Positions 2,938 through 64,000 of a stretch of DNA of 64,000 nucleotides are shown one piece after another; the first letter of the stretch is position 1, and each line of letters starts with the position of its first letter. The translations under genes were made by a program, and so were the position numbers. The DNA is taken from positions 248,193 through 312,192 of the forward strand of contig NZ_KB893671.1 of assembly GCF_000374165.1 (NCBI RefSeq). The letters are read 5' to 3'. The notes beneath the pieces are model-generated. The model saw only the letters and a list, made by a program, of their open reading frames with translations. It was not told the DNA's origin and did not search any database. The stretch comes from Parafrankia elaeagni (GTDB taxonomy: Bacteria > Actinomycetota > Actinomycetes > Frankiales > Frankiaceae).

Positions 2938-2951
2938 CCGGGGGGAGGGCG

Positions 2952-4594: not shown

Positions 4595-4764
4595 GAGTTC
4601 TCGCCTCCTGTCGCACCCGGGCCATCCGACGATAACGCGCTGCGGACGCCTGCTGCCTGTTGGCTGGGACCGGTCTGGCGAACAGTGCTATTGCGGCCTG
4701 GCATCGGGCCTGGCACCGCCGCTGTCGGCCTGGCCACGAGGTGTGTACCCGGGTCTGGTGGGCG

Positions 4765-5550: not shown

Positions 5551-5652
5551 GGACGACTCCCACCCGGGCTGGCGCCGGTCTCCGGCGCTGCACCAGCGAT
5601 CCTGCCGCCTTCCGGCGGTGAGCCGGCGGCCTGACGGCGTGGCAGCTGGTGG

Positions 5653-6716: not shown

Positions 6717-6799
6717 CACAGCCCTTGCGCGTAACCAGGAAGGCGGTCACTATCAGTTACTTTCAAGGTTGAGGTGAGTGCTGAGAGTGGTGATGCCTG

Positions 6800-7000: not shown

Positions 7001-7007
7001 GGACGTC

Positions 7008-8231
7008 GTGACAACGCGCCCGCCGCGGGCGGCGGGGAGCCACATCCTGCATGTCGACATGGACGCGTTCTTCGCCTCGGTCGCGGTCCGCGACACCCCC
7101 GAGCTCCGGGGGCGCCCGGTGATCGTCGGCGGGGGCACGCGGGGTGTGGTGCTGTCCGCGACCTATGAGGCCCGCGCCTTCGGGGTGCGCAGCGCCATGC
7201 CGATGGCACGGGCGCGCCGGATGTGTCCGACGGCCGTCGTCGTACCCGCGGATCACGGCCGGTACCGTGAGGCCTCCCGTGCGATCATGGGCGTCTTCCG
7301 GGACGTCACCCCGCTGGTGGCCCCGATCTCGCTGGACGAGGCCTTCCTCGACGTGAGCGGCGGGCGGCGGCTGTTCGGGGGGCCGGTGGAGATCGCGCGG
7401 GGAATCCGGGCCAGGATCGCCGCCGAGCAGGGTCTGACCTGCTCCGTCGGGGTGGCGCCGTCGATGTTCGTGGCGAAGATCGCGTCGGCCCGGTGCAAGC
7501 CCGACGGCCTGCTGGCCGTACCGCCCGAGGGGGTGCTCTCCTTCCTGCACCCGCTGCCGGTCGCGGCGCTGTGGGGGGTGGGGCCGCGCACCGAGGAGAC
7601 GCTGACCAGGCTCGGACTGCGCACCATCGGCGACATCGCACGGACACCCGCGGACACGCTGCAGCGGGCCCTCGGGAAGGGCTCGGCCGATCACATGATC
7701 GCGCTGGCGCACGGGCGGGACGGGCGCCGGGTCGATCCGGACGGCGCCGAGGTGTCTCTCGGTGCCGAGGAGACCTTTCCCGCCGACCTGGCTGACCCGG
7801 AGCGGCTCGACCGTGAGTTCCTGCGGCTCAGCGAGCGGGTCGGCGGCCGGCTGCGGGCCCGCGGCCAGGTAGCCCGCAACATCTCGATCAAGGTCCGCTA
7901 TGCGGACTTCACCACCGTGACCCGTGCCCGGACACTTCCCGAACCGACCGACGTCACCTGGATGATCTACCGGTCCGCCCGGGCGCTGTTCGCGGAGCTG
8001 CGGGGCGACGGCCGTCCGCTGATCCGCCTGGTCGGCGTGCGCGCGTCGCGGCTGGCCGCTGTCACGCTCGGTGGGCGCCAGCTGGCCTTCGGTGAACGGC
8101 CTGCCGGTTGGGCGGAGGTCGACCGGGCCACCGACGGGGCGCGCAGCCGGTTCGGGGCGGCGTCCGTCCGGCCCGCCTCCCTGCTGCCCGGCCGCGCCCG
8201 GCAACCGCCGCCACGGGCGGGTCCCGGATGA
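7008..8231 (+). CDS. dinB: DNA polymerase IV (Y-family translesion polymerase)
   Basis: A 407-residue Y-family polymerase that copies past damaged bases with low fidelity. Catalytic motifs are intact: HVDMDAFFASV near residue 15, the YEARAFGVRSAMP motif, and SLDEAFLDVSG carrying the DE pair. The helix-hairpin-helix region (ALWGVGPRTEETLTRLG) and the little-finger domain (ISIKVRYADFTTVTRARTL) follow. No obvious C-terminal beta-clamp motif was identified in the Arg/Pro-rich tail. GTG 7008 has AGGGAC upstream. It is the last gene of the rightward cassette headed by the SOS box, so damage induction is likely. Confidence 0.95.
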   Translation: MTTRPPRAAGSHILHVDMDAFFASVAVRDTPELRGRPVIVGGGTRGVVLSATYEARAFGVRSAMPMARARRMCPTAVVVPADHGRYREASRAIMGVFRDVTPLVAPISLDEAFLDVSGGRRLFGGPVEIARGIRARIAAEQGLTCSVGVAPSMFVAKIASARCKPDGLLAVPPEGVLSFLHPLPVAALWGVGPRTEETLTRLGLRTIGDIARTPADTLQRALGKGSADHMIALAHGRDGRRVDPDGAEVSLGAEETFPADLADPERLDREFLRLSERVGGRLRARGQVARNISIKVRYADFTTVTRARTLPEPTDVTWMIYRSARALFAELRGDGRPLIRLVGVRASRLAAVTLGGRQLAFGERPAGWAEVDRATDGARSRFGAASVRPASLLPGRARQPPPRAGPG

Positions 8232-8439
8232 TCACAGAAATCCATGATCGTAGGATGAGCGTGGCATGAACGACGGTGGCCCGGGCAAGAGCCCAGTACG
8301 CCGAATCGCTCTGGTCGGGGACGGTTCGGACCGGCTTGGACACAGCATGACCAGTTGCCTACCGCCTCGGCCCCGCACATGCCTATTCTTGGGTGTCAGG
8401 TTCCGTCCGGCGGGCCTGAAGGTCGTGGGAGGAGCGTCG

Positions 8440-8868
8440 ATGCCGCTCTCGGAGAACGAGCAGCGCCTACTGGAGCAGATCGAGCGCGCTCTCGTCGAGG
8501 ACGATCCGAAGTTCGCGAGTACGGTCCGATCGACCAATCCCCGGACCTACCTGCTCAGGCGGGTCCGGCGTAGCGGGGGGCTGTTTCTCCTCGGTCTCGT
8601 GGTCCTCGTAGTGGGCGTGGTCATCAACCAGGGGCCACTCACGGTGGCCCTCGGGATCCTGGGGTTCGTCACCATGCTCTTCGCCGCCCTGCGCGGCGCG
8701 GCGGACCTGCGGAGGATGAGTGGCCGCGGGCAGGAGTCGGGGCGTCGTCCACCCGGGGCGAGGGGCAGGTCGGGCTCTGGTGGGAAGACACGCCAGTCCC
8801 GGTCGTCGTCGTCGTTCATGGAGCGGGTCGAGGAGCGGTGGCGTCGCCGCTGGGAGGACAACTCCTGA
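8440..8868 (+). CDS. DUF3040 family membrane protein
   Basis: A 142-residue small membrane protein. It starts with the characteristic MPLSENEQRLLEQIERAL, has a conserved DDPKFAS segment, and then two adjacent hydrophobic helices (about residues 47-67 and 70-88). The tail is basic and Ser-rich. GGGAGGAGC precedes ATG 8440 at good spacing; the frame is open further upstream but family proteins begin at this Met. DUF3040 genes commonly lie beside polymerase IV and the dcw cluster in actinobacteria. Function is unknown. Confidence 0.9.
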   Translation: MPLSENEQRLLEQIERALVEDDPKFASTVRSTNPRTYLLRRVRRSGGLFLLGLVVLVVGVVINQGPLTVALGILGFVTMLFAALRGAADLRRMSGRGQESGRRPPGARGRSGSGGKTRQSRSSSSFMERVEERWRRRWEDNS

Positions 8869-50226: not shown

Positions 50227-51276
50227 TCAGAGCCCGGCCGAAACCCTCGGCGCGGAGCCTTCCCATGAAGTTGGCGTCGATCTTACGGCGCCGTCTCGCG
50301 GGCCGTCCTCGGCGGGTGTCTTTCCGGTCATCCGTCGGAAACGCTGGCGGTACTCCCCGGGTGTGATTCCGAAACACTTGCGGAAAGCGATGTGGAAGCC
50401 GACCGCACTTTTGTAACCGACCTTCTGGGGTATCACGCCGAGCGGGACGTCGCTCTCCGCGAGTAGACGCGCGGACTCACGCATCCGGCGGAGGGTGAGA
50501 TGGCTGGATGGGCTCTCGCCGACGATCTCGCGGAAACTGGCCGCGAAGGCCGATCGGGACATGCCGACCTCCCTGGCCAGGGACTCGATCGTCCAGGGCT
50601 CGACGAATCGCGTGTACATGATCAGCAGAGCTTTGCTGATGGCCGGGTCCTTCAGTGCGGTGATCACCTCCGGACGATCCATCATGCCGCGCAGCAGGGG
50701 GTGGAGGGTGAGAATGAAGAAGACCTCGAAGATCCGCAGGGTGATCAGGCGCGGCCCGAGCCCGCCGTCCCGGTCCGTGACGAGCTGGTGGATGATGTCC
50801 CGCAGCAGTGGTTCCGCCTCCACGGCCTCCCGCTCGAGCGTGAGCATCCACGGCAATGCGTGGTAGAGAGATGACACGGTGTTGGTGTCGTAGTAAAGGC
50901 CCGCGCAGAGGATCCGTGTCAGCTCGCCCTCTCCGCCGAGCGCCAGCTGGCTCGAGATTCCCGGCGAGCGGTCGGCGAGCAGGGTCCGCAGCGGCACGCC
51001 CCGCCGATCAGGGTGGTCTGAGACCCGGTGCGACCGCCCGGTGGGGAATACCGCCAGATCCCCCTCCCGCAGGAGGACCGGCCGAGCCCCCTCGGTGCCG
51101 ATCCAGCACGAGCCCTCGATGACGTAGTGGAGTACGACGCAGTCCGATTCGGAATCGCCTTCGATCGACCAGGGAGAATTCAGGAGCCAATGGCTCTGGA
51201 ACACTCCGGTCAGACGAATCGGACGTAGAAGCTCACCCAGCAGATCATTGTCCTGGTCCGCTGCCTGTACGGGCAT
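50227..51276 (-). CDS. AraC-family transcriptional regulator (AraC_binding_2/cupin type)
   Basis: A 349-residue regulator. The N-terminal cupin-like domain (VVLHYVIEGSCWIGTEGARPVLLREGDLAVFPTG) senses a ligand; the C-terminal third has the two helix-turn-helix units, PWTIESLAREVGMSRSAFAASFREIVGESPSSHLTLRRMRESARLL and PLGVIPQKVGYKSAVGFHIAFRKCFGITPGEYRQRFR. ATG 51276 has GGGAG eight bases upstream; ATG 51351 is in frame but without a ribosome site. It is transcribed away from the PrnB-like gene cluster across a 718-base gap and is the obvious candidate for its pathway-specific control. Confidence 0.93.
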   Translation of the reverse strand: MPVQAADQDNDLLGELLRPIRLTGVFQSHWLLNSPWSIEGDSESDCVVLHYVIEGSCWIGTEGARPVLLREGDLAVFPTGRSHRVSDHPDRRGVPLRTLLADRSPGISSQLALGGEGELTRILCAGLYYDTNTVSSLYHALPWMLTLEREAVEAEPLLRDIIHQLVTDRDGGLGPRLITLRIFEVFFILTLHPLLRGMMDRPEVITALKDPAISKALLIMYTRFVEPWTIESLAREVGMSRSAFAASFREIVGESPSSHLTLRRMRESARLLAESDVPLGVIPQKVGYKSAVGFHIAFRKCFGITPGEYRQRFRRMTGKTPAEDGPRDGAVRSTPTSWEGSAPRVSAGL

Positions 51277-51994
51277 GTCCCCGCTCCCTCGGTACTGGCG
51301 GCTCGCTTTATTGGACGGTACCTGCGGAACACCTGGATTCGACCGGGTCATCCGCCGTACATCAGTTTCCCGAGCCTAACCTGTACACAACCGCCAGATT
51401 CAGGTCTGCGCTTGGTCGCGAAGGTGACAATATCACCCTGATCGGGAACCGTGTGGTCCTCGAGGACCCAGGCCCAGGTCAGGCCCCCGACCCCGGGCCC
51501 TCGAGCGGGTAGGACGGCGCCGTCGCGGTGACGAGTCTCACGGGCAATGGGGGATTTCTGTCCGGTTCGATCGACGTAACGTCCATTTCACCCGCGCCTG
51601 GCCGCGGCCAGTTCGGTGGTGTCCAGAACTGCTGTGGCCCCGGGTGGCGCGGCCCGTTCCGGGGCCGGATGGTCCAGGAAACTCCCGTTCTCGCAGCCGA
51701 TGTGGCACATCGTCGAGCCGACCTCCGGTCACGCACCCGCCGAACGAGTCCAACCGTCCAACCAGCCGCGATTCTCCTCCGCCGCAGGCCGGCCCATGTC
51801 GGGTGACCTGAGCGGCCAGATGTGGTATCAGGGTGCGCACGGTATCGGATGCCCGAGGACGTACGGGCATCGAGCCGCCCGGGCGCATGGACGTTTGTTA
51901 AGTAGCCCTGGTCGATTCCTTATTGCCTCCCCGGTTCGGGTGGAGAACCGTTGTCGTGGGCCGGTTCTCGACGGGTACGGGAAGGAGCCAGGTC
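51277..51994. other. Divergent intergenic region of the PrnB-like cluster
   Basis: This 718-base region is visibly richer in A and T than the rest of the window and holds no convincing gene. It contains a short inverted repeat at 51423-51437 and, nearer the first monooxygenase gene, a weak promoter candidate: TTGTTA at 51895-51900 with CTTATT about 18 bases later. The cluster's regulatory signals for both directions should lie here. Confidence 0.55.
51423..51437. promoter_or_regulatory. Inverted repeat, possible operator
   Basis: GGTGA-CAATA-TCACC is a perfect 5-bp inverted repeat with a 5-base spacer, about 150 bases upstream of the AraC-type regulator and 560 bases upstream of the monooxygenase gene. 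Its size suits a dimeric regulator, but no protein can be assigned. Confidence 0.3.
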
Positions 51995-53419
51995 GTGGTT
52001 GCAGCCGGGCGCGTTTCGGGCGGTCCGTCGTTTCGCGCCGCGAAGGTTCTCGTTGCGGGCGCGGGGATAGGCGGGCTCGCGGCAGCGCTGAGTCTGCAGG
52101 ACGCCGGTTTCGACGATGTCGTCGTGGTGGAAGCCGTACCTGAACTACGCCCGTTGGGCGCCGGGGTGAACCTGCTGCCCAACGCGGTACGTGAACTGGC
52201 CGCGCTCGGCCTTTATCACGAGGTCACGCGGCGGGCGGTGCGGACTTCGGAGATTCGATACCACAACCAGCACGGTGACCTGATCATGGCGGAACCGCGT
52301 GGTCGGGCCGACGGCTACGACTGGCCCCAACTGTCGATTCGACGAGGTGAGCTCCAGCAGGTGCTTCTCGACGCGGTCCGCACCCGGCTCGGTGAACGCG
52401 CACTCGTCAGTGACTGCCGCGTGACCGGGGTGTCCAGCCGGTCCGGGGCGGGTGTCGACGTCCTGCATGGTGGCCAGCCCATCAGGCTTACCGCCGATCT
52501 GCTGGTCGGCGCGGACGGAATCCACTCGGCCGTTCGGCGGTCGCTCCTCGGCGGTGACGGCGAACCGGTCTGGAATGGACAGGTCGTCTGGCGTGGCATG
52601 ACCTGGGCTCCGCCGCTGAACCCAGCCAACAGCATGATCATTATGGGTGACGGCGTCCGAAAAGCGGTGGTGTATGCGGTGACCCCTCCTCGCGGTGACG
52701 GCTACACGCTGCTCAACTGGGCGGTTTCCCGTCACTTCACCACCGCCGAGGTCGACCGCTCGGACTGGAACCGGCCAGTGCCGGCGGGGAGGTTCGCCCA
52801 CGAGTTCGTGGGGTGGCGTACCGGCGGGCACCTACTGACCGACCTGTTCCAGGCCGCGAGCGGATGTTTCGAGTACCCGATGATTGATCGCGATCCGCTG
52901 CCCACCTGGAGCCGCGGGCGGGCCACACTGCTCGGCGACGCCGCGCACGCGATGCATCCCATGGGCTCCAACGCGACGACCCAGGCTGTGATCGACGCAC
53001 GTGCTCTCGCCTACTTCGTGGCACTGGAGCCGGATGTCGAACGTGCCCTGACGGCCTACGAACGACATCGCCGCCCGGTGGCCACGCAGGTCCAGATCGC
53101 CAACCGGGCGATGGGCCCGGAGGCCGTTATCGACCTGGTTGCCTGCCGTGCACCGGAGGGATTCGCGGCCGTCGACGATGTGCTGCCCACCGCCGAACTG
53201 CACGCGATATGCAATGAATACGCCGAACTGGCTGCCTTCGACCGCGGCAGCGTCAACACCAGGTCTCCCTATGACACCCGCCGGGCCCGTCTCGTGGGCG
53301 CAGGCGAATGCTCTCCAAGTGGCGGGTCAGCCTCCCCGGCCCCGCCGCACCCCGACGATTCCCTGCCTGCCAGGCGGATCACCGCAGAACTGGTCACTGC
53401 AGCGAGAGAGGCAACATGA
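51995..53419 (+). CDS. FAD-dependent aromatic monooxygenase 1 (PhzS-like class A)
   Basis: A 474-residue class A flavoprotein monooxygenase, NAD(P)H-dependent, likely to hydroxylate an aromatic ring. FAD contacts are GAGIGGLAAALSLQDAGF near residues 21-38, the DG motif VGADGIHSAVRR and the GD motif LLGDAAHAMHPMGSNATTQAVIDA. GTG 51995 has AAGGAG seven bases upstream. It lacks the WxWxIP motif of flavin halogenases. It opens the putative operon and overlaps the next gene by four bases. A clear paralogue lies eight kilobases downstream. Confidence 0.92.
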   Translation: MVAAGRVSGGPSFRAAKVLVAGAGIGGLAAALSLQDAGFDDVVVVEAVPELRPLGAGVNLLPNAVRELAALGLYHEVTRRAVRTSEIRYHNQHGDLIMAEPRGRADGYDWPQLSIRRGELQQVLLDAVRTRLGERALVSDCRVTGVSSRSGAGVDVLHGGQPIRLTADLLVGADGIHSAVRRSLLGGDGEPVWNGQVVWRGMTWAPPLNPANSMIIMGDGVRKAVVYAVTPPRGDGYTLLNWAVSRHFTTAEVDRSDWNRPVPAGRFAHEFVGWRTGGHLLTDLFQAASGCFEYPMIDRDPLPTWSRGRATLLGDAAHAMHPMGSNATTQAVIDARALAYFVALEPDVERALTAYERHRRPVATQVQIANRAMGPEAVIDLVACRAPEGFAAVDDVLPTAELHAICNEYAELAAFDRGSVNTRSPYDTRRARLVGAGECSPSGGSASPAPPHPDDSLPARRITAELVTAAREAT

Positions 53420-54894
53420 CCCGTACCGGAAGCCAGTATCTTGATTCCCTGCGCGATGGCCGTCAGGTGTGGCTTGACGGCGAACTCGTCAGGGACGTCA
53501 CGAAGCATCCGGCCTTCCAGAACACGGCGCGCTCGATCGCCGAGCTCTACGATCTGACCCACGATCCGGGACTCGTCGACGTTCTGACCGTGCCCGGCGG
53601 CGACGGAAGCACCAGAGAACACCGGGCGTACCGGATTCCGGAGAACTACGAGGACCTGGTCGCCCGGCGCAAGGCGTACAAGGTCTGGGCCGAAGCGAGC
53701 TTCGGATACCTCGGGCGCTCGCCCGACTACATGGCCGGTGGCATCGCCGGGTTCCTGGCTGTCCCCGAGGTGTTCGCGGGCGAGTCCTTCGACGGCAGGC
53801 AGAACCTCGGTTCCTACCACCGCCGGATGGCCGGCGGCGACCTGTACCAGGCGTTCACCATCACGAACCCGCAGATCGACCGGACGAGGTCCGCCTCCGA
53901 GCAGGAGGAAGACGATCTCTACGTCCGGGCGGTGAAGGAGCTGGACGGCGGGATCGTGGTCCGTGGCGCCAAGATGATAGGTACCGCGGCGGTCTTCGGA
54001 AACGAGATCATCGTCGGCACCATCGAGCCGTTGCCCCCGCAGGACGTGGACTATGCGCTGTCGTTCTCGGTGCCAATCGACACGCCGGGGCTGAAGCTCG
54101 TCTCTCGTGCCTCGTACGAGGCCTCGGCGCGAAGCGTGTTCGACAATCCACTGTCCTCCCGGTTCGACGAGAACGACGCGTTACTGGTGTGCGACGACGT
54201 CTTCGTCCCCTGGGACCGGGTACTGGTGTACCGGGACACCCGTGCCGCGCTGCTGCAGTGGTGGGGCACGGCGGCCTACGCGAACTTCGTGCATCAGGCG
54301 GCGACACGGTTCTGGACGAAACTCGAGTTCCTGTCCGGGCTTGCCATCCTCATCGCGAAGGCGAACAACACCTATGAGCTGCCGCCGGTGCAGAACCAGA
54401 TCGGGAGGATCCTCGGCTGGCTGGCGGTCGCGAGGTCGATGGTTCTCGCCGCCGAGGCGGCCTGGGAACCCGTACCGGGGGGCAGCGGAGTGCGGATCAA
54501 CAATGAGATCGCATCCGCGCACCGGGCGATGGCCGGGGAGATCTACCCGAAGGTCATCCAGGAGGTCAAGCTCCTTGCCGGTGGCGGGCTTATCCAGCTC
54601 CCCGCGTCCGGCCTCGACCTGCGCCACCCCGAGATGGGTGGCCTGATCGCGAAGTACGTGCGCTCGCCGGGGCATCCCGCCGAGCGTCGGATCAAGCTCC
54701 TGAAGCTCGCGTGGGATGCGCTCGGTTCGGAGTTCGCCGGCCGGCACGAGCAGTACGAACGCTTTTACCACGGCGCGCCGCACATCTACTTTCCGATGAT
54801 TCTGCGCGACAGCCGACCGGAACTTCTGGAGCAGCTCGTCGAGAAGTGCATGCAGGGCTACGACCTTCCCGCCGCGCCCGCGACGACGAGCTAG
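53416..54894 (+). CDS. HpaB-type FADH2-dependent aromatic hydroxylase
   Basis: A 492-residue member of the 4-hydroxyphenylacetate 3-hydroxylase (large component) family, which uses reduced flavin from a separate reductase to hydroxylate phenols. Family features are the start TGSQYLDSLRDGRQVWLDGE, RSPDYMAGGIAGF, FTITNPQIDRTR, NPLSSRFDENDALLVCDDVFVPWDRV and the C-terminal KLLAGGGLIQLPAS. ATG 53416 overlaps the preceding stop. No flavin reductase (HpaC-like) is present in the window, so one must be supplied from elsewhere. It may act on a phenol or aniline intermediate of the pathway. Confidence 0.92.
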   Translation: MTRTGSQYLDSLRDGRQVWLDGELVRDVTKHPAFQNTARSIAELYDLTHDPGLVDVLTVPGGDGSTREHRAYRIPENYEDLVARRKAYKVWAEASFGYLGRSPDYMAGGIAGFLAVPEVFAGESFDGRQNLGSYHRRMAGGDLYQAFTITNPQIDRTRSASEQEEDDLYVRAVKELDGGIVVRGAKMIGTAAVFGNEIIVGTIEPLPPQDVDYALSFSVPIDTPGLKLVSRASYEASARSVFDNPLSSRFDENDALLVCDDVFVPWDRVLVYRDTRAALLQWWGTAAYANFVHQAATRFWTKLEFLSGLAILIAKANNTYELPPVQNQIGRILGWLAVARSMVLAAEAAWEPVPGGSGVRINNEIASAHRAMAGEIYPKVIQEVKLLAGGGLIQLPASGLDLRHPEMGGLIAKYVRSPGHPAERRIKLLKLAWDALGSEFAGRHEQYERFYHGAPHIYFPMILRDSRPELLEQLVEKCMQGYDLPAAPATTS

Positions 54895-54913
54895 CCGAAA
54901 CAGGTGACTTCTT

Positions 54914-56359
54914 TTGGGAAAATCTGCCCGTAGCGCCCTGACGCTGCTCGCCGGAACCCAGTTTCTTCTCATTCTGGACACGGCGATCATAAATGTCGCG
55001 GCGCCGTCGATCGGAGACGAGTTCGACGTCTCGGCGGCGACGCTGTCCTGGGTGGCCAACGCCTATCTGGTGACGTTCGGCGGTCTGTTGCTGCTGAGCG
55101 GTCGTCTGGCGGACCTGCTCGGGCGCAGACGGCTGTTCCTCACGGGTCTGGCCGTCCTGGTCGCCGCGTCGCTGACCGGCGCGGTGGCGCAGACGGCCGC
55201 CTGGCTGATCGCCGCCCGAGCGGTGCAGGGTGCTGGCGCGGCTCTGGCCGCGGCCGCGGCGTTCGCGCTGCTGCTCAGCCTGTTCCCGGACGGCCCAGAC
55301 CGTCATCGGGCGCTGGGCGTGTTCGCGGCAATGGCCGGGGCGGGCGGCGCCGCGGGAACCGTGCTCGGCGGCGTGCTCACAAGCTGGTTGACCTGGCGGT
55401 CCACCTTCGGGCTGAACGTGGTCGCCGGCCTCGTGCTCGTCGGGTCGGCACTTCGGGCGCTGGCGCCGGACATGCGTCCGCCGGCACGTCGCGGCTTCGA
55501 CCTCGGTGGCGCGCTGGCCGTCACCTCGGGGCTCGCGCTGCTCGCCTACAGCCTGGTGAACACGGGCGTGGCCGGCTGGACCTCGCCGCGGACCCTCCTA
55601 CCCGGCGCGACGGCGGTGGCGTTCCTGGCGATCTTCGTCTGGCTGGAGGGCAGAGCACGCGTTCCCCTGGTTCCGGCCGCGGTCGTGCGCAGGCCGGTCC
55701 TACGGCGGGCGAACCTTCTCTCGGCCCTCGGGCAGGTCGTGCTCTTTCCAATGTTCTTCCTCGTCAGTGTGTATCTGCAGGATGTTCTCGGTTACTCACC
55801 GGTCGCGGGCGGCGGCGCACTGCTCCCGTTGTGCGTCGTGGTCATTCTGGTGGCTTCCAACGCGGAGCGGCTGATCGGCGGCCTCGGGCTCCGTCCGGCG
55901 ATGATCGCGGGCTTCGTGCTCGTGGCCGTCGGCATGGCATGGCTGTCGCTGCTGTCTCCCGACGGCTCGTTCGTCGGGGATCTCTTCCTGCCCAGCCTGA
56001 TCCTCGGAGTCGGCCTGCCGCTGGTTGTCATCACCACGAACGTCGCGGCGACCGCGGACGCCGGCCCGGAGGAGATCGGCCTCGCCTCCGGACTGATCAA
56101 CACCAGCCAGCAGTTCGGCTCGGTGATCGGTCTCGCGGTGCTGAGCGGTATCGCCAGCGCGCGTGTCACCGCCGAGGGCGGTCCGGACGATCCCGCGGCG
56201 CTCACCAGTGGCTTCGCCCTCGCCTTCATCGTCGCCTCCGCCATCGCGCTGCTGTCCGCCCTCTACGCGGCGGTGCCACGGACGGCGAGGCCCCGACAGG
56301 AGCCGACCCGGGAAGGACCACCGGTGTCGATGGCTGCACCGGGAGACAGGAAGAGCTGA
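54914..56359 (+). CDS. MFS exporter, DHA2 (14-helix) drug:H+ antiporter family
   Basis: A 481-residue major facilitator with about 14 helices. It begins GTQFLLILDTAIINVAAPSIG (motif D1) and has motif A in GRLADLLGRRRLF and motif C-like GAGGAAGTVLGGVLT. This subfamily exports hydrophobic drugs. The start is probably TTG 54914 with AGGTGA eight bases upstream. Its position inside the cluster suggests that it exports the product and gives self-resistance. Confidence 0.9.
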   Translation: MGKSARSALTLLAGTQFLLILDTAIINVAAPSIGDEFDVSAATLSWVANAYLVTFGGLLLLSGRLADLLGRRRLFLTGLAVLVAASLTGAVAQTAAWLIAARAVQGAGAALAAAAAFALLLSLFPDGPDRHRALGVFAAMAGAGGAAGTVLGGVLTSWLTWRSTFGLNVVAGLVLVGSALRALAPDMRPPARRGFDLGGALAVTSGLALLAYSLVNTGVAGWTSPRTLLPGATAVAFLAIFVWLEGRARVPLVPAAVVRRPVLRRANLLSALGQVVLFPMFFLVSVYLQDVLGYSPVAGGGALLPLCVVVILVASNAERLIGGLGLRPAMIAGFVLVAVGMAWLSLLSPDGSFVGDLFLPSLILGVGLPLVVITTNVAATADAGPEEIGLASGLINTSQQFGSVIGLAVLSGIASARVTAEGGPDDPAALTSGFALAFIVASAIALLSALYAAVPRTARPRQEPTREGPPVSMAAPGDRKS

Positions 56360-56451
56360 GCCCCCTGAGGGCGCATGACCACACAACGGCCGGTGCGTCC
56401 GGGACCGCCGCCGGCCCACGACAGCACAGCGACGAAAGGGCGAGAAAAGGC

Positions 56452-57408
56452 ATGTCAGAGGACCGCACTTATCTGGTGATCGGAGCGCGTGGCTTCCAGG
56501 GAGCCGCTGTGGCCCGAGCCCTGCTCGCCGAGGGCCTCGATGCCCGCGGGTTCGCCCGGGGCTCCGGTGCACCGGTCGCCGGCATACCAGCGCTTCCGAC
56601 GGTTCTGGGTGACCTCGCCGAGCTCGACGACGTCCGCAAGGCCTTCGTCGGCGTCACGCACGTATCCGTGGTGCTGCCGCTGGTCTACGACGTGGAGCTG
56701 GTCCAGACCTATGCGCGCAATGTGGCCGCCGCCGCGCGTGAGGCGGGCGTGACCCGACTGGTCTACAACACCAACACCCCGTTGCCGAGGCAGGTCACCC
56801 CGTATGCGGCCTATGAGACCCGCCGCGCCGCCGAGGCCGTGCTGGCGGACGGTATTCTGCCGACGGTCGTGCTGCGCCCGCCGGTGTACCTGGACAACCT
56901 GTTCAGCCCGTGGAACGGGCCCGCGCTGATCAACGACGGGGTACTGGCCTATCCGCTGCCCGAGGGGCGCAGGGTCTCCTGGCTCTCGCACGCGGACCTT
57001 GCCACGGCCACCCTCGCGGCCCTGCACGGTGAGGGGCTCGAGGGAACGGTGCTGTCGTTGGGCGGCCCCGACACGGTGACGGGAGGAGAGCTGGCCCAGG
57101 CCTTCGCCGCCGCGCTCGGCAGGGACGTCGCCTACGTTCCGCTGGAGGCGGACGACTTCGAGGCGGGGCTGCGGACGGTGCTCGGCACGCCTGCCGCGGC
57201 AGGCGTGGCGGGAATCTACCGGTGGGTCGGCACCGGCGGTGACGCCGAGCTCTTCGTCGCGGACCACGACGAGGTCGAGCATGTCCTGGGCGTCCGCCTC
57301 ACCCCGATCAACGAGTGGGTCGCCGCCCAGCCCTGGAGCACATGGGCGGCTGTTCGCTCGAACGGCGCCGGGCCGCCGGATCCGGTCAGAGCCGACCATG
57401 GTGGTTGA
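56452..57408 (+). CDS. NmrA-like NAD(P)-binding oxidoreductase (atypical SDR)
   Basis: A 318-residue Rossmann-fold protein. The nucleotide-binding loop is YLVIGARGFQGAAVARALL (GxxGxxG), with GVTHVSVVLPLVYDVE, NTNTPLP and VLRPPVYLDNLFSPW typical of NmrA/HSCARG-type SDRs. These proteins include true reductases and redox sensors. A Tyr-x-x-x-Lys catalytic pair is not evident. ATG 56452 follows AAAGG-rich sequence and lies 92 bases after the transporter. The gene overlaps the ketosynthase start by 11 bases. Confidence 0.88.
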   Translation: MSEDRTYLVIGARGFQGAAVARALLAEGLDARGFARGSGAPVAGIPALPTVLGDLAELDDVRKAFVGVTHVSVVLPLVYDVELVQTYARNVAAAAREAGVTRLVYNTNTPLPRQVTPYAAYETRRAAEAVLADGILPTVVLRPPVYLDNLFSPWNGPALINDGVLAYPLPEGRRVSWLSHADLATATLAALHGEGLEGTVLSLGGPDTVTGGELAQAFAAALGRDVAYVPLEADDFEAGLRTVLGTPAAAGVAGIYRWVGTGGDAELFVADHDEVEHVLGVRLTPINEWVAAQPWSTWAAVRSNGAGPPDPVRADHGG

Positions 57409-58714
57409 GCGTCCCGAGGAGAGGCGGGAGGGCCTGGCCACCGTCGAAGGCTGGGGGAGCGCCGTCGCTGTTGTCGGCATGGGCTGTGAGCTGCCGTCCG
57501 CCCGTGGCCCGCAGGAGCTGTGGCGTCTGCTCGCGCAGGCGCGCGACGCGGTCGGCCCGGCCCGGGCCGGGACCGGTCTGCGGCAGGCCGGGCACATCGA
57601 CGACGCCGGCTGTTCCGACCTGACCCGCTTCGGTATCGATCCCGACGAGGCGGCCGGGATGGATCCGCAGCAGCACCTGCTGCTGCGAGTCGCGTACGAC
57701 GCCATCGCCGACGCCGTCCTCGACCCGGCCGGCATCGCCGGGAGCCCCACAGCCGTCTACGTCGGGCAGTCCGCTTCGGACTTCTGGGATCTCCGGTCCC
57801 GGTCCGCCGGCCTCGACCTGGGTGACTTCGTGGGCTCCCACCAGCGCGGACTTCTTTCCGGGCGGGTGAGTCACACGTTCGATCTCCGAGGGCCCTCCGT
57901 CACCGTGGACACGGCGCAGGCGTCCTCCCTGGTGGCGGTCCACCTGGCCTGTCGCAGCCTGCGCGCGGGGGACGCGGAGCTGGCCCTTGCCGGCGGCGTC
58001 AACCTGCTGTTGGGCCGGCAGACCGGTGTCATGCTCGGTCGCGGTGGGGTGCTCTCCTCCGACGGGCGGTGCAGGTTCGGCGACGCGTCCGCCGACGGCT
58101 TCGTGCGGGCCGAAGGGGCCGGCGTGGTGCTGCTCAAGCCGCTGGCCCGCGCGCTGTCGGACGGCGACCGGGTGCGCGCCGTCATCGCCGGCAGCGCAGT
58201 CACCAATGACGGCCGGGGCAAGGAGACGCTGCTGCACCCCTCGGAGAAGGGCCAGGCCGAAGCGATGCGTCGTGCCTACCTGGATGCCGGAATCGCGCCC
58301 GCCGAGGTCGACTATGTCGAGGCGCACGGCACCGGCACCCGGATCGACGTGGCGGAGCTGCGCGCGCTCACCGCCGTGCTGGGACAGGGGCGCCCGGCCG
58401 GCCGACCCTGCCTGGTCGGCTCGCTCAAGTCCAACATCGGCCACGCCGAGGCTGCGGGTGGCGTTGCCGGGCTCATCAAGACCGTGCTGTGCCTGGAGAA
58501 CGGCGCCGTTCCCGCCAGTCTCCACTTCACCGTCCCCCATCCGGCGGTCGACTGGGATCGCGTTCCCCTTGCCGTGCCGACCGTCCTGACCAGGCTGCCG
58601 AACCGGGGAACGCCCGTCGTCGCGGCGGTCAACGGCCAGAGTGTTTCCTCGACGAACGTTCACGTGGTCCTCACTGCGGCCCCGGAAGAGAGGGCGCCCT
58701 GCCGGCGACCGTAA
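57398..58714 (+). CDS. Stand-alone ketosynthase with Cys-to-Gln active site (KSQ-like)
   Basis: A 438-residue thiolase-fold protein most like the ketosynthase domains of type I polyketide synthases (AVVGMGCELPSARGPQELWRLL; KSNIGHAEAAGGVAGL). The nucleophile motif normally VDTACSS is VDTAQASS, so the active Cys is Gln174; His310 (EAHGTGT), Lys344 and His349 are present. Gln at this site is the hallmark of KSQ domains, which decarboxylate malonyl-ACP, and of chain-length factors, neither of which condenses acyl chains. No acyltransferase or carrier protein is encoded near it. It could decarboxylate a malonyl-type substrate or bind an intermediate; the role is open. Confidence 0.9.
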   Translation: MVVERPEERREGLATVEGWGSAVAVVGMGCELPSARGPQELWRLLAQARDAVGPARAGTGLRQAGHIDDAGCSDLTRFGIDPDEAAGMDPQQHLLLRVAYDAIADAVLDPAGIAGSPTAVYVGQSASDFWDLRSRSAGLDLGDFVGSHQRGLLSGRVSHTFDLRGPSVTVDTAQASSLVAVHLACRSLRAGDAELALAGGVNLLLGRQTGVMLGRGGVLSSDGRCRFGDASADGFVRAEGAGVVLLKPLARALSDGDRVRAVIAGSAVTNDGRGKETLLHPSEKGQAEAMRRAYLDAGIAPAEVDYVEAHGTGTRIDVAELRALTAVLGQGRPAGRPCLVGSLKSNIGHAEAAGGVAGLIKTVLCLENGAVPASLHFTVPHPAVDWDRVPLAVPTVLTRLPNRGTPVVAAVNGQSVSSTNVHVVLTAAPEERAPCRRP

Positions 58715-58800
58715 TCCGGGCGCCGGCGGGTGCGGGCCTTTCCCGCGCCACTCTTCTTGCTCGCCTCGCTGCTGTTCCCCTGAACATCCTGGAGGCAACA

Positions 58801-59925
58801 ATGTTCTTCCGTGGCTCCTTACTTCACGGAAACGACATACAGATCGAGCATGTATGCGCCATTGATCCGCTGGGTGCCGACGAGGTGTGTGGCAGGCTTC
58901 CCGAGATGAACCGGCGTGCCGACGTCGCGAGCCTGGTCGGATCGCTGCGCGGTCTTCTGCCTGACGCCCGCGGACTGGCGGACCTCGACATGGACGACTG
59001 CCTGGCGGCCATGCGGGACATCGGCATCTTCCTCGGATCGATCAGGCGGCACGGTCACGAACCGGTTGGGCTGGTCCCCGAGGTGGGCCCGCTTCTGGTC
59101 GAACTCGGCAACAGGACCGATCTCGTCCCCAGAGACATCGTGCATCATTACTGCACCTGGAACCCGCTCGGTGAGCGGCAGCGCATGTACACGGGAGACG
59201 CTCAGGAGAACCATCTGCAGAACGCCGTGCGCATCGTTTTTCCCCACCTGCGTGCGGCGCTGGAGATGTGCCACATTCTCCGTGACGTGGAGCCCGCGGA
59301 TCCGAAGTTCGCGGTGTTGGCGGATGCGCTCGACCGGGAGCTGCAGCCCATGGTCGAGGCGATCAAACTGGTCGGCGAACACGTGAGCCCACAGTTCTTC
59401 GCCCGCACACTGCGCCCCTATTTCGAGGATGTGGAGGTGGACGGGCGGAGATACCTGGGGCCAGCCGCGGCGCAGGTTCCGTTGTGGCTGGTCGACGAGG
59501 CGGTGTGGGCCTCCGACCGCGGGGAGCGGAACTACCTGGACTTCCTCGACCATTCGGTGCCCTACAGCCTGCCCCGATGGCGGGAGCTACACACGGCCTG
59601 GGTCGGCACCTCATCGCTGGTCACAGCTGTCATCGACGCCTACGGCGACGATCACGACGCCGCGGACCGGGCGGCGCCCACCCTGGTCTCCAGCGCCCGT
59701 GCGCTCGCCCGGGTGCTGCGCACCATGCTCGTCTTCCGGGGGCGCCACCTCACCATCGCGCGGCAGGCCTATCAGGAGGATCTGCGGCTCTACCCGGTCG
59801 GCAGCGGCGGCGCCAGCGTCGATCTGCTCCGCGAGATCATCACCCTTACCAGGCAGAACTCCCAGGTCACCAAGGGGATGAGCGGGCTGGACCTCCGTGC
59901 TCGGGCAGCCGGGGCGGCCACGTGA
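58801..59925 (+). CDS. PrnB-family heme enzyme (monodechloroaminopyrrolnitrin synthase-like)
   Basis: A 374-residue homologue of PrnB, which in pyrrolnitrin biosynthesis rearranges and decarboxylates 7-chlorotryptophan to an aminophenylpyrrole and belongs to the indoleamine/tryptophan dioxygenase superfamily. Similar blocks, recalled from PrnB, are AMRDIGIFLGSIRRHGHEP, LVELGNRTDLVPRD, RMYTGDAQENHL, VSPQFFARTLRPYFE and YLGPAAAQVPLWL. His316 in FRGRHLTIARQAY aligns with the heme-ligand His313, Tyr324 with Tyr321 and Ser335 with Ser332. ATG 58801 has GGAGG six bases upstream. No halogenase is nearby, so the substrate is probably unchlorinated tryptophan or a modified form. Confidence 0.88.
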   Translation: MFFRGSLLHGNDIQIEHVCAIDPLGADEVCGRLPEMNRRADVASLVGSLRGLLPDARGLADLDMDDCLAAMRDIGIFLGSIRRHGHEPVGLVPEVGPLLVELGNRTDLVPRDIVHHYCTWNPLGERQRMYTGDAQENHLQNAVRIVFPHLRAALEMCHILRDVEPADPKFAVLADALDRELQPMVEAIKLVGEHVSPQFFARTLRPYFEDVEVDGRRYLGPAAAQVPLWLVDEAVWASDRGERNYLDFLDHSVPYSLPRWRELHTAWVGTSSLVTAVIDAYGDDHDAADRAAPTLVSSARALARVLRTMLVFRGRHLTIARQAYQEDLRLYPVGSGGASVDLLREIITLTRQNSQVTKGMSGLDLRARAAGAAT

Positions 59926-61211
59926 GGATCGTCATCGCCGGGGCGGGGATAGCCGGGCTGTCGGCAGCTCTGAGCCTGCAGGCAGCCGGATTCTCCGACG
60001 TCACCGTGCTGGAGTCGGTGCCCCGGATCCGACCGCTCGGGGTCGGTCTGAACATCCTTCCCAACGCCGTGCGTGAGCTCGACGAGCTCGGTTTGCTGGG
60101 ACGGCTCGCCGAGGTCGCGGTGATGACCGGGAACCTTTCCTACTACAACCGTTTCGGCTCGCTGATCTGGAACGAGCCCAGAGGGCTCGCCGCCGGATAC
60201 CGCTGGCCCCAGCTGTCGGTTCCCAGAGGGCGGCTGCACAGCGTTCTGCTCGAAGCCGTCCGGGAGCGCCTCGGGCACGAGGCGGTTGTTCTGGACGCGA
60301 GGGTGACCGACTTCGAGAACACGCCGATCGGCGAGGTGGCGATCGGCGTGGAACACCGCGGCGCCACCGCCTCCCGCCGGCACGCGGAGCTGCTGATCGG
60401 CGCCGACGGCATCCACTCCGCGGTCCGGGCTGCGATGCACCCACGCGACGGCGGGCCGCGGTGGAACGGTTTCGTCGTCTGGCGGGGCACCGCGTGGGCG
60501 CTTCCCTTTCTCGACGGCCACACGATGATCATCGCTGGTGACCGTGGCCGCCGTGCCGTGGTCTATCCCATGTCCAGACCGCTGCAGCCTGCGGATCCCG
60601 TGCTGATGAACTGGGCTGTGGCCCGGCAGGCACGGGAGGGCGACGTGGTCGACCGGGCCGACTGGAACCGCCCGGTCGAGCCCGGGCGGTTCATCGAGGA
60701 CTTCGCCGACCTGGCGTACGACTGGCTCGACATCCCCCGGCTGGTCCTCTCGGCGGACCAGGCGCTGGAGTACCCCATGGTGGACCTCGACCCGCTGCCG
60801 GGCTGGACCAGCGGCCGGGTCGTCCTGCTCGGCGACGCCGCGCACGCCATGCACCCGATGGGATCCAACGGCGCCACCCAGTCCATCGTGGACGGCCGGG
60901 CGCTCGCCGGCGCGCTGGCGGGACATCCGGACCTGGACGAGGCACTCGCGGCCTATGACCGCCGGCGTCGGCCCGCCATGGCGGAACTGCAGGAGGCAGG
61001 CCGCCGAAGAGGACCGGAAAGGGTGATCGACCTGGCCGACGAGCGCGCCCCGAACGGCTTCGAGTCCGTCGAGGACGTGATTCCGGCCGACGAGCTCGAC
61101 GAGCTGGCGCGCTCCTACGCCCGGCAGGGCGGCTTCGACCCACACACCGTGAATACCCGTGCGTCCTACCTGACCGGCCCGGTCGCCGCGCAGCGAGGCG
61201 GTGGCGGGTGA
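59922..61211 (+). CDS. FAD-dependent aromatic monooxygenase 2 (PhzS-like class A)
   Basis: A 429-residue class A flavoprotein monooxygenase and close relative of the gene at 51995: GAGIAGLSAALSLQAAGFSDV, RIRPLGVGLNILPNAVRELDELGL, IGADGIHSAVRAAM and LLGDAAHAMHPMGSNGATQSIVDG all have counterparts there, as do the C-terminal NTRASY residues. The GTG start overlaps the PrnB-like stop, and its own stop overlaps the next gene. The pair probably arose by duplication and could perform two successive hydroxylations. No halogenase tryptophan motif is present. Confidence 0.92.
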   Translation: MRIVIAGAGIAGLSAALSLQAAGFSDVTVLESVPRIRPLGVGLNILPNAVRELDELGLLGRLAEVAVMTGNLSYYNRFGSLIWNEPRGLAAGYRWPQLSVPRGRLHSVLLEAVRERLGHEAVVLDARVTDFENTPIGEVAIGVEHRGATASRRHAELLIGADGIHSAVRAAMHPRDGGPRWNGFVVWRGTAWALPFLDGHTMIIAGDRGRRAVVYPMSRPLQPADPVLMNWAVARQAREGDVVDRADWNRPVEPGRFIEDFADLAYDWLDIPRLVLSADQALEYPMVDLDPLPGWTSGRVVLLGDAAHAMHPMGSNGATQSIVDGRALAGALAGHPDLDEALAAYDRRRRPAMAELQEAGRRRGPERVIDLADERAPNGFESVEDVIPADELDELARSYARQGGFDPHTVNTRASYLTGPVAAQRGGGG

Positions 61212-61858
61212 GGATCGACGTGTACTCCGACATCTCGTGCCCATGGTGCTATCTCGCCGTGCGCAACCTCCGTGCCGCGACCGCCCAGTACGGCGAGGAG
61301 CGGGTCGAGGTTCTTGCGCACCCCTGTCAGATCGACGGGGAGAATCCCGACCGGCCCGTCCCGGTCCTGGAGTTCCTCGGCCGCAAGTACGGGCCTGACC
61401 GGGCCCGCCGCATGAGCGAGGAGGTCACCGTTGCCGGCGCGGGGCTCGGCGTGCGGTTCGCGAACGAGAAGGCACTCGCGGTGAACACCGTCCACGCGCA
61501 CCGCCTCCTCTGGATGACCGGGCGCGAGTACGGATGGCGGGTACGCGCCGATGTCGAGGAGAACCTCTTCGCGGAGTGGTTCGTCCACGGCGGGAACGTC
61601 ACGGACGCCGAGGTGCTCGTGCGGTGCGCCGTCGCGGCGGGCGTGGCGCCCGCGCGCGCTGAGCGGCTCGTCGCCTCGGACGAGTACCTGGCCGCGGTAC
61701 GGGCCAGGATCGCCGAGACCCGCGTCGAGTGCGCCGCGGTCCCCGTGGTGGTGTTCGACCGGAGCACCCGGATCGAGCACTACCAGTCGTCCTCCCGTTA
61801 TCTCACCGCCCTGCTGGCTGCTGCTCCCACCGAGGTGTCCGGGAGTGAGAGATCGTGA
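61208..61858 (+). CDS. DsbA-family thioredoxin-fold protein (FrnE-like)
   Basis: A 216-residue thioredoxin-fold protein with a helical insert, close to the FrnE/2-hydroxychromene-2-carboxylate isomerase group. The active site SDISCPWCYLAVRN has a CPWC motif, and the cis-proline loop is in CAAVPVVVFD. FrnE was named from frenolicin biosynthesis, where its role is uncertain; related proteins are disulfide oxidoreductases or glutathione-dependent isomerases. No signal peptide is seen, so it is cytoplasmic. GTG 61208 overlaps the previous stop, and the end overlaps trpC, so it is clearly part of the operon. Confidence 0.9.
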   Translation: MRIDVYSDISCPWCYLAVRNLRAATAQYGEERVEVLAHPCQIDGENPDRPVPVLEFLGRKYGPDRARRMSEEVTVAGAGLGVRFANEKALAVNTVHAHRLLWMTGREYGWRVRADVEENLFAEWFVHGGNVTDAEVLVRCAVAAGVAPARAERLVASDEYLAAVRARIAETRVECAAVPVVVFDRSTRIEHYQSSSRYLTALLAAAPTEVSGSERS

Positions 61859-62688
61859 CGACACCCGTTGGTTCCCGTGGACGCCTCCTGGCGGAGATCC
61901 TGGCGTCTCAGCGCGCCGAGCTGCCCCGGCGGATGGCGCAGGTCGGCATCGCCAGCCTGCGGCGCCGGGTGGAGGACCGGGCGATGCGGCTGTCGGGCGC
62001 CCAGATCATCACGTCGCTGCGCGGGCCCGAGGGCGTGCGGGTGATCGCAGAGGTGAAGCGCAACAGCCCCGCGCGGGGCGCGCTGGCCCCGATCGCGGAT
62101 CCGGCCGCGCTGGCGGCGGCTTATGCCGCGGGCGGAGCCGCCGCGATCAGCGTTCTGACCGAGCCGCGGTTCTTCGGCGGGACGCTCGACGATCTCGCGG
62201 CTGTCCGGGAACGGGTCGGTGTCCCGGTGCTGCGCAAGGACTTCGTCGTGCATCCGTACCAGGTTGTGGAGGCCGCAGCGTATGGCGCGGATCTGGTGCT
62301 GCTTATCGTCGCTGCGCTTGAGCCGCGCGAGCTGGCGGGCCTGCTGGACGAGGCGGCCGGCTGCGGCCTGGCGGCGCTGGTCGAGGTGCACTCGGAGGCG
62401 GAGCTGGCCGTGGCGGTCGACGCCGGGGCACAGATCGTCGGCGTCAACGCCCGCGACCTGACCACGCTCGCCGTCGACCGCGACATCCTCTCGAGGCTGG
62501 CACACGCGATCCCGGGCGACGTGGTCTGCGTCGCGGAGTCCGGTGTGCGGGGGCCCGACGACGTCCGGGCCTATGCCGCGGCAGGCGCGGACGCAGTCCT
62601 GGTCGGTTCGTCGCTCGTCGTCCATGAGCAGCCCGCTGACGCGGTGGCCGCGCTGGTGGAGGCCGGCCGACGGGCGGTCCCGTGCTGA
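61855..62688 (+). CDS. trpC: Indole-3-glycerol phosphate synthase
   Basis: A 277-residue (beta-alpha)8 barrel that closes the indole ring in tryptophan synthesis. Family motifs are [15 protein letters not shown] (catalytic Lys), [27 protein letters not shown] (second catalytic Lys), GVNARDL and [12 protein letters not shown] with GSSLV for phosphate binding. EVKRNSP differs slightly from the usual EVKRRSP. It overlaps both neighbours. It may be a pathway-dedicated copy feeding the PrnB-like enzyme or the genome's only one; the window cannot tell. Confidence 0.95.
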
Positions 62689-63965
62689 CCGGGAATCCGA
62701 TGCGCGGCGACGTCGACTACCTCGATGTGGTCGTCGAGGCGCTGGGTGCCCCCGCGGACGTCCTGCCGGACCGGGCGGGGCACTTCGGCCGGTTCGGCGG
62801 CCAGTTCATGCCGGAGGCGCTGATGGCGACGCTCACGGAACTGACCCGGGCCTACCACGCCGCGCGCATGGATCCCGGATTCCTCGCCGACTTCGCCCGC
62901 CTCCTGACGGGGTACGCGGGCCGGCCGAGCCTGCTCACCGAGGCCACCCGCCTCGCGGCCGGCACCCGGGCGCGCATTCTGCTCAAGCGCGAGGATCTCA
63001 ACCACACCGGATCACACAAGATCAACAATGTGCTCGGTCAGGCGCTGCTGGCCCGTTCCACGGGCAAAAGCCGGCTGATCGCCGAGACGGGGGCCGGCCA
63101 GCACGGCGTGGCCACCGCCACCGCGGCGGCGTTGCTCGGGCTGGAGTGCGTCGTCTACATGGGCGCTGAGGACACCCGCCGCCAGGCGCTCAACGTGGCC
63201 AGGATGGCCGTCCTCGGGGCGACCGTGGTACCGGTCAACACCGGCAGCCGTACGCTCAAGGACGCGATCAACGAGGCGCTACGCGACTGGGTGACGAACG
63301 CCGGCACCACCCACTACCTGCTCGGCACGGCGGCGGGCGCACATCCGTTCCCAGCGATGGTCCGGGACTTCCACCGTGTCATCGGAGTGGAGACCCGGCG
63401 GCAGATGCGCCTCGCCTACGGCGCGCTTCCGGACGCGATCGTGGCCTGCGTCGGCGGAGGGTCCAACGCAATCGGCGCGTTCCATCCCTTTCTGCAGGAC
63501 GAGTCCGTGCGGCTGTATGGCATGGAGGCCGGCGGCGCGGGCGACGGCTCCCTCCGCCATGCCGCGTCCATCACCGGAGGCTCGGTGGGAGTGCTCCACG
63601 GAGCACGCACCTACCTGCTCCAGGACGAGTTCGGGCAGACCCGGGAGAGCCACTCCATCTCCGCGGGGCTGGACTACCCGGGTGTCGGGCCTGAACACGC
63701 GATGCTGCACGACCAGGGGCGGGTGCACTACGAACGGGTGACCGACGACGAGGCCATGGCGGCCTTCCGGCTGTTGAGCCGAACCGAGGGCATCATCCCG
63801 GCGATCGAGTCCGCGCACGCGGTGGCCGGCGCGTTGCGGCTGACGCCCCGGCTCGCCGCCGAGCTGGGCCGGGAGCCGCTGGTGGTCATCTGCCTGTCCG
63901 GCCGGGGAGACAAGGACATGGGCACCGCGGCCGCCTACTTCGGACTGCAGGGGAGCGACGGGTGA
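62682..63965 (+). CDS. trpB: Tryptophan synthase beta chain
   Basis: A 427-residue PLP enzyme joining indole and serine. [13 protein letters not shown] opens the fold, the PLP lysine is Lys113 in [14 protein letters not shown], the catalytic Glu is in [15 protein letters not shown], the phosphate loop is [11 protein letters not shown] and the cation/Asp region [14 protein letters not shown] follows. It is the canonical TrpB1 type by its [13 protein letters not shown] motif. GTG 62682 overlaps trpC by seven bases; ATG 62700 is possible. The stop overlaps the next gene. Confidence 0.96.
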
Positions 63966-64000
63966 CCGGGCACGACGGCGAGACGGACCAACGCACCGGC
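63962..64000 (+). CDS. Start of a gene, probably tryptophan synthase alpha chain (partial)
   Basis: GTG 63962 overlaps the trpB stop as GTGA and opens a frame of 13 residues ([13 protein letters not shown]) to the window end. trpA almost always follows trpB with this overlap in actinobacteria, so the call rests on position; the residues themselves are not diagnostic. Confidence 0.55.

Follow-up and report, generated by a model that had tools for sequence, protein, structure and literature searches.

What does a PrnB-family heme enzyme make in a genome that carries no real tryptophan halogenase, and what is served by the tryptophan genes beside it? The question is raised by the right-hand part of a 64,000-nucleotide stretch of the Parafrankia elaeagni genome (G000:C2:248193-312192, hereafter the window; the genome, 98.08% complete with 5.46% contamination, comprises 7.59 Mb in 135 contigs). 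From position 50227 to the right window end, a divergent AraC-type gene on the minus strand is followed by ten codirectional genes on the plus strand, encoding a flavin monooxygenase (FMO1), an HpaB-family hydroxylase, a major facilitator superfamily (MFS) protein, an NmrA-like protein, a KSQ-like ketosynthase (KS), the PrnB-like enzyme, a second flavin monooxygenase (FMO2), a DsbA/FrnE-like protein, TrpC and TrpB; Pfam scans bore out each of these genes as named in a preliminary description of the locus. The cluster thus unites a PrnB-family heme enzyme with its characteristic residues, three flavin hydroxylases, a reductase, an exporter and extra trp genes, and a good part of these genes is co-inherited. 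We consider it somewhat probable (roughly 0.55) that the cluster makes a halogen-free, tryptophan-derived alkaloid, whereby the PrnB-like enzyme would rearrange tryptophan to an unchlorinated aminophenylpyrrole-type core to be oxidised by the flavoenzymes and exported. The start of this pathway, from tryptophan through the PrnB-like enzyme, is well supported; the product is what we infer from it.

The 374-residue heme enzyme (58801..59925) matches PF08933 with 136.9 bits (curated cut-off 27), the sole such match in the genome, and a phmmer search of the PDB at E 0.1 returned PrnB of P. fluorescens (PfPrnB; 2v7i, E 1.6e-67) and FbPrnB (9dfg, E 2.7e-44) and no others. In an alignment of 91 family rows (88 distinct; PfPrnB numbering), conservation extends to 90 rows for the heme histidine, 91 for Tyr321 and 89 for Ser332 (87, 88 and 86 of the distinct rows), the losses being confined to L091 and L112. 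The window protein retains all three, the proximal heme histidine included, and its assignment to the PrnB family, with heme- and substrate-binding residues in place, stands. The L091 row, which is devoid of both the heme histidine and the Ser332 equivalent, may be broken or misaligned.

The position of Val117 is occupied by tyrosine in 89 of the 91 rows (86 of the 88 distinct ones), and valine is found only in the canonical prn rows L012 and L013. FbPrnB shows the same valine-to-tyrosine difference, with a smaller pocket and a changed pose of unsubstituted tryptophan, 7-chlorotryptophan sits similarly in PfPrnB and FbPrnB, and PrnB accepts unchlorinated tryptophan (PMC11791213). This tyrosine and the absence of any real tryptophan halogenase from the genome jointly favour tryptophan itself as the substrate. 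The best PF04820 match in the genome is partial and scores 25.7 bits; partial matches of this kind also arise in control genomes, for instance that of E. coli, and a true halogenase scores 542.7 bits. The latter is found in Glycomyces (L092:8228-9895), just before PrnB, and is followed by an FMO, a Cys-type KS and an acyl carrier protein (ACP). As had been reported for prnA, prnC and prnD, neither a halogenase nor a Rieske gene is present among the Pfam hits in the cluster (for PrnD, the search covered the cluster only).

Purified PrnB is inactive in vitro, a missing cellular component being suspected (PMC11791213), so that the chemistry of the family is not fixed. Accordingly, the PrnB-like enzyme might be a simple tryptophan monooxygenase, giving hydroxytryptophan or a tricyclic hydroxypyrroloindole carboxylate for subsequent oxidation by the flavoenzymes, with no phenylpyrrole on the way. 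Cyclic monooxygenation has been reported for indoleamine 2,3-dioxygenase and discussed for PrnB (PMC12921851), and hydroxylation of indole has been proposed, albeit unproven, for a Paenibacillus PrnB homologue (PMC13036774). However, the bacterial tryptophan hydroxylases BifE and OhmK are placed on the side of tryptophan 2,3-dioxygenase (TDO) (PMC13285481, PMC6920865), whereas the window protein, at E 0.001, has PF08933 as its sole match and retains the residues typical of PrnB. The TDO family PF03301 is matched neither by this protein at the same threshold nor elsewhere in the genome (98.08% complete), which speaks against TDO-type hydroxylases. We regard simple monooxygenation as unlikely, though the likeliest of the alternatives.

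The second line of evidence for a pathway starting from tryptophan is the supply of this amino acid. The cluster carries an extra set of tryptophan genes, namely, trpC (61855..62688), trpB (62682..63965), trpA and trpD, as well as trpE- and trpG-like genes. The first bases of trpA lie in the window (63962..64000) and the gene ends at G000:C2:312999 (L005:807) on contig C2, which comprises 419,833 bases and runs on past the right window end; as the preliminary description had expected, trpA is found there, followed by trpD (L005 804-2024, minus strand), a MocR-type regulator gene (2012-3484, plus strand; profile scans) and the trpG-like (3498-4244) and trpE-like (4067-5569) genes, both on the minus strand and with starts not refined. 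NCBIfam cut-offs are passed by trpC, if barely (NF001377, 260.9 bits, cut-off 260; Pfam IGPS 247.9 bits), trpB (TIGR00263, 578.5 bits, cut-off 392.45; PALP 141.5 bits), trpA (TIGR00262, 177.2 bits, cut-off 102.35) and trpD (TIGR01245, 342.6 bits, cut-off 199.05). The trpG-like gene passes only the joint anthranilate/aminodeoxychorismate synthase amidotransferase model (TIGR00566, 187.8 bits, cut-off 121.05), and trpF was not seen in the set. Although the trpE- and trpG-like genes can be assigned only at the family level, their position beside trpD still points to tryptophan. Separate matches to the trp genes are present on other contigs of the same genome, including a second trpB on contig C64 (72% DNA identity), and the trp set of the cluster is therefore an additional one, in agreement with the dedicated supply proposed earlier. 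The trpE-like protein (L005:4067-5569) reads LLED at the site of the LLES motif of feedback-sensitive enzymes, and other cluster copies vary there too. In L016, L019 and L025, a gene of the class II 3-deoxy-D-arabino-heptulosonate 7-phosphate synthase family adjoins trpE (cluster c34; assigned by Pfam in L016 only). The label c34, like c7, c8 and c20 below, derives from a gene caller that sometimes reports antisense shadows.

Whether these genes are kept together across actinobacteria had been set beforehand as one of the tests of the proposed scheme. A single scan across 84,980 species genomes yielded 144 relatives, the best 80 of which were used; gene presence was counted by tblastn with the window proteins, TrpD being outside the query set. 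Conserved neighbourhoods were found, an outcome in favour of the scheme. Thirteen of the 80 loci are window-like, with both KS and NmrA, and reside in Pseudonocardiales, Micromonosporaceae and Streptomycetaceae; AraC is present in all 13, HpaB, MFS and DsbA in 12 each and MocR in eight, and the clade has moderate support (94/96). A smaller set, consisting of AraC, NmrA, PrnB and FMO but no KS, is found in 51 loci, 42 of which also have HpaB and MFS; these 51 include the proteobacterial L082, L084 and L085 and also L057, the PrnB of which groups with the window-like ones. The remaining 16 fit neither group. In a genome of the same genus (G004), the left half of the cluster, from AraC to KSQ, is present at 91%–97% protein identity, followed by the first 96 PrnB residues at 94% identity, at which point the contig ends. 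The ratios of nonsynonymous to synonymous substitution rates (dN/dS) against G004 are 0.27 for FMO1, 0.11 for HpaB and 0.58 for NmrA (three of six genes were computable). The gene order of the cluster is repeated in other actinobacterial families, and this recurrence, taken with the G004 match, indicates that the grouping is more than chance.

Across the larger family, the constant part consists of PrnB and FMO, usually with HpaB and MFS, and a locus may or may not have trp genes and KSQ. The unit that is kept together thus appears to be the PrnB–FMO pair with HpaB and export, to which trp genes have been added in some branches. Hence, the earlier scheme holds for the cluster itself, PrnB and the tryptophan supply, but was drawn too narrowly, the trp genes and KSQ being optional in the larger family; it also gave KSQ no role.

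FMO1 (51995..53419; FAD_binding_3 70.2 bits) and FMO2 (59922..61211; 79.7 bits) are paralogous class A monooxygenases, the best solved relatives of which are 2rgj (E 3.7e-77 and 4.4e-87, respectively) and 3c96, both PhzS. An FMO lies directly downstream of PrnB in 73 of the 80 loci (72 by script plus L025, where the genes abut), the others being L021, L026, L028, L029, L030, L061 and L090. FMO1 proper, upstream of HpaB, is found in all window-like loci except L027 (12 of 13) and forms its own clade in the FMO tree, confined to these loci. In a set of 33 rows, chosen by hand and made up of the window and 32 loci, the distances among FMO proteins agree with those among PrnB proteins (Mantel r 0.886, a value reached in none of 2000 permutations). 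In both proteins, the window-like copies of Streptomycetaceae lie at a smaller distance from window-like copies in other families than from the small-cassette copies of Streptomyces (PrnB 0.41 versus 0.48; FMO 0.36 versus 0.44). This agreement is explained by shared descent of a linked pair, and physical contact or joint action is not thereby proved. Five of the loci without an FMO after PrnB (L021, L026, L028, L029 and L030) form a single group (support 99/99) with PrnB 56%–59% identical to that of the window; a conserved gene converges on each of them, which Pfam identified as a methyltransferase gene in L021 and L029, the two loci scanned, and L026 has a FUSC-type transporter upstream. In L061, which is of the small-cassette type, HpaB, MFS and PrnB are present and no FMO was matched.

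The third flavoenzyme, the HpaB homologue (53416..54894; HpaB_N 304.5 bits, second HpaB match 176.9 bits), was aligned to 2yyg in 63 rows, all distinct. Arg100 is invariant (63/63) and Tyr104 is kept in 53 rows, with cysteine in the other 10, but the catalytic His142 is replaced by phenylalanine in all 63, so that the Arg100-Tyr104-His142 site is incomplete. In TtHpaB, His142 deprotonates the phenol (PMC10537072). The replacement therefore suggests, softly, that the enzyme would act on an arylamine, a pyrrole or the like and not on a simple phenol.

The free-standing ketosynthase (57398..58714; ketoacyl-synt 219.6 bits) reads DTAQASS where related KS rows have DTACSSS and keeps both catalytic histidines, so the KSQ-like label was apt. 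Glutamine replaces cysteine in 18 of 22 KS rows, and HGTGT and N(I/V)GH are found in all 22; among the 18, one G004 gene is counted three times and a G250 copy lies beside L025, so that 15 distinct loci are represented. The best single-domain PDB match is 7uwr (PikA1 modules 1 and 2; 317 bits), itself of the Gln form, the top-listed entry, 7zma, scoring via two domains. A two-sequence ACP profile found no ACP in the 15 window-side loci (the window and 14 others, including L057, which has no KS); in L092 this profile did recover an ACP from which it had not been built, whereas it gave no ACP in L088. Cys-type KS are encoded in L010, L079, L088 and L092, and ACP was detected by the profile in all of these except L088; L010 and L079 also contain a β-ketoacyl-ACP synthase III gene. 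No acyltransferase is present among the Pfam hits of the window cluster, which thus has neither of the partners, acyltransferase and ACP, that define the loading module of a modular polyketide synthase. The protein looks like a loading-type KSQ outside any polyketide synthase.

Taken together, these observations suggest the following scheme. Extra tryptophan would be made on demand, and the heme enzyme would rearrange L-tryptophan, rather than 7-chlorotryptophan, to a 3-(2-aminophenyl)pyrrole-type core, perhaps with the carboxylate retained. FMO2 would perform the first oxidation of this core, the HpaB homologue may hydroxylate the arylamine or pyrrole ring, and FMO1 could catalyse a further oxidation. 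The NmrA-like NAD(P)H reductase (56452..57408; NmrA 60.7 bits; PDB 5f5l, E 2.6e-16; also triphenylmethane reductase 2vrc, E 4.6e-10) would reduce a quinone or quinone-imine, and KSQ would be a recruited, putative decarboxylase. The MFS protein (54914..56359; MFS_1 157.7 bits; TTG start uncertain) would export the product. Pfam confirmed the superfamily; its earlier designation as a DHA2 exporter is sensible, though weakly backed, given that the DHA2 model TIGR00711 scores 198.6 bits, below its cut-off of 230.2. The operon would be controlled by the AraC-type regulator (50227..51351, minus strand; Cupin_6 103.4 bits, HTH_18 72 bits).

Several observations weigh against this scheme. The window protein is only about 40% identical to canonical PrnB and scores 137 bits on PF08933 as opposed to 362.7 and 358.8 for two canonical members, and the canonical pair sits on a tree branch of 2.29. 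The five loci without an FMO mentioned above group inside the window-like clade and yet contain no FMO, HpaB or KS. The related HadA uses a different histidine as the base for phenols (PMC8342789), and Tyr104 of HpaB is retained in most rows despite the phenylalanine at His142; in view of HadA, phenylalanine is no proof of a non-phenolic substrate. More generally, what has been established for the cluster is gene content, residues and co-inheritance. Finally, among the 13 window-like loci, TrpB and TrpA are found in one each, TrpC in eight, TrpG in seven and TrpE in six (some stretches are cut short), so that tryptophan is not the sole possible branch point. The trpE-like gene lies below every listed NCBIfam cut-off (best model TIGR01820, 345.3 bits, cut-off 512.05), with PabB models ranking next (PabB-clade2 307.8 bits, cut-off 408.55), and is thus not separated from PabB.

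These last two findings fit a pathway that branches off before tryptophan, in which the trp genes would supply an anthranilate or indole precursor and the PrnB-like enzyme would act on a derivative. However, some clusters for tryptophan-containing antibiotics carry the same early trp subset, the window and L015 have both trpB and trpA, homologues of which are also found in L084 and L085, and the solved PrnB complexes bind tryptophan (PMC11791213). An earlier branch point hence seems decidedly improbable. A pathway of the mansouramycin type, leading to an isoquinolinequinone and concealed from rule-based mining, would likewise start from tryptophan; it yields a quinone and is not annotated by antiSMASH (PMC12690601). 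We set this link aside as very improbable, considering that the mansouramycin route passes through a C7 carboxamide quinone, that the words PrnB and heme are absent from the main text describing it (PMC12690601) and that the genome encodes no TDO, an enzyme which that route presumably needs. A decayed or incomplete pyrrolnitrin cluster, suggested by the PrnB homology, is scarcely tenable, given the intact frames, the dN/dS values above, the different and conserved gene set and the lack of PrnA-, PrnC- and PrnD-type Pfam hits in the cluster and of a real halogenase in the genome.

Beyond the proposed tryptophan-derived alkaloid, a bolder and, as a whole, quite unlikely generalization is that the cluster belongs to an undescribed, widespread family of halogen-free clusters built on the PrnB–FMO pair, in which the PhzS-like FMO would be the missing partner that drives or completes the rearrangement, a reaction beyond purified PrnB by itself, the products would be oxidised phenylpyrrole (or lactamised pyrroloquinoline) redox pigments, and the free-standing KSQ of the window-like branch would have been taken over to decarboxylate small molecules. 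A flavoenzyme that is usually inherited with PrnB represents a concrete candidate partner for an enzyme that resists reconstitution. PrnB homologues of this kind are common. The genus of G385, which lies in the class of the window genome, is taken as Streptomyces, three of its PrnB sequences being identical to named Streptomyces ones; at E 1e-20, 49 of its 392 genomes gave a match, 41 of them at no less than 44% identity and eight at 29%–33%. PF08933 is matched in nine of 394 genomes sampled from the class and in three of 36 of the window's family, the window genome included. In the small cassette, core genes for polyketides, peptides or terpenes are not seen, and rule-based mining may therefore miss it. 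We found no description of the cluster in the open-access literature on PrnB, aminophenylpyrrole, tryptophan hydroxylases and prn genes, a search that, being limited to open access, is weak evidence of absence.

Overlaps of four bases, noted previously, occur at five of the 10 junctions out to trpA (FMO1/HpaB, PrnB/FMO2, FMO2/DsbA, DsbA/TrpC and TrpB/TrpA), TrpC and TrpB overlap by seven bases, NmrA and KSQ by 11 with the KSQ ATG at 57398, and the remaining three junctions are gaps of 19, 92 and 86 bases. The listed open reading frames of FMO1, HpaB, NmrA, KSQ, PrnB and FMO2 begin too far upstream and their starts were re-chosen, that of FMO1 being a GTG picked for the preceding AAGGAG site. 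The DsbA/FrnE-like protein (61208..61858; DSBA 83.3 bits; FrnE 5cp1, E 4.7e-18) has a CPWC motif; in L015, L017–L020, L023, L027 and L087, DsbA is followed by a berberine-bridge-type FAD oxidase (c20; by Pfam in L015 and L087) that is absent from the window. The stretch left of the AraC gene contains frames with no Pfam match, a pair of ABC transporter genes and a gene of the DUF6308 family. Beyond the trpE-like gene, the profile scans identified a RibD_C-type reductase (L005 5839-6474), an alpha/beta hydrolase (6638-7378) and an MmgE/PrpD protein (7394-8833), all on the minus strand; the genes past these, for a Lon substrate-binding protein, NIF3 and others, look like ordinary surroundings.

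Relatives elsewhere display diverse contexts. The small cassette of L067, the only such locus checked by Pfam, sits between glgE and a glycogen phosphorylase-like gene, its neighbour protein clusters c7 and c8 having 47 and 46 members. In Aquabacterium (L084 and L085; Pfam on L084 only), the PrnB–FMO pair resides among genes for DsbA, NHL-repeat, 3-dehydroquinate synthase-like, UbiA and TatD proteins, a phosphodiesterase and trp homologues, a neighbourhood reminiscent of Ebo and scytonemin surroundings. G385 carries a small-cassette-clade PrnB (L110) and also a 747-residue frame (L113:7975-10218, the same as frame L104:460-2703) that matches PF08933 with 313.9 bits and represents a different PrnB-related subfamily. 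G457 and G512 encode distant PrnB homologues (29% identity), each with one in-frame TAG, and in G026 (L112:7429-10035), a PrnB homologue adjoins a cupin and a protein with a cucumopine-synthase C-terminal domain.

Among known systems, the scytonemin cluster, which is not known to contain PrnB, resembles the window cluster in being tryptophan-derived and in having trp genes of its own together with a gene for a DsbA-like protein. The phenazine flavin monooxygenase PhzS (2rgj and 3c96) is the best solved relative of both FMO1 and FMO2, whereas the Pfam hits of the cluster include no phenazine gene. The pyrrolnitrin cluster prnABCD, represented here by Azotobacter (L012) and Burkholderia (L013), shares with the window the PrnB-family enzyme, about 40% identical and with the heme histidine, tyrosine and serine kept; by contrast, the window cluster has FMOs, HpaB, KSQ, NmrA, DsbA and trp genes in place of halogenases and a Rieske oxygenase, and its PrnB has tyrosine at the Val117 position. 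The Flavobacteriales enzyme FbPrnB (9dfg) shares this tyrosine and the loop serine (numbering of PMC11791213), although by phmmer E-value PfPrnB is the closer of the two to the window protein. Finally, BifE, OhmK and, by citation, Luz15 are likewise histidine-ligated heme enzymes that act on tryptophan in bacterial clusters, but BifE is described as a member of a TDO subfamily (PMC13285481), whereas the window protein belongs to PF08933.

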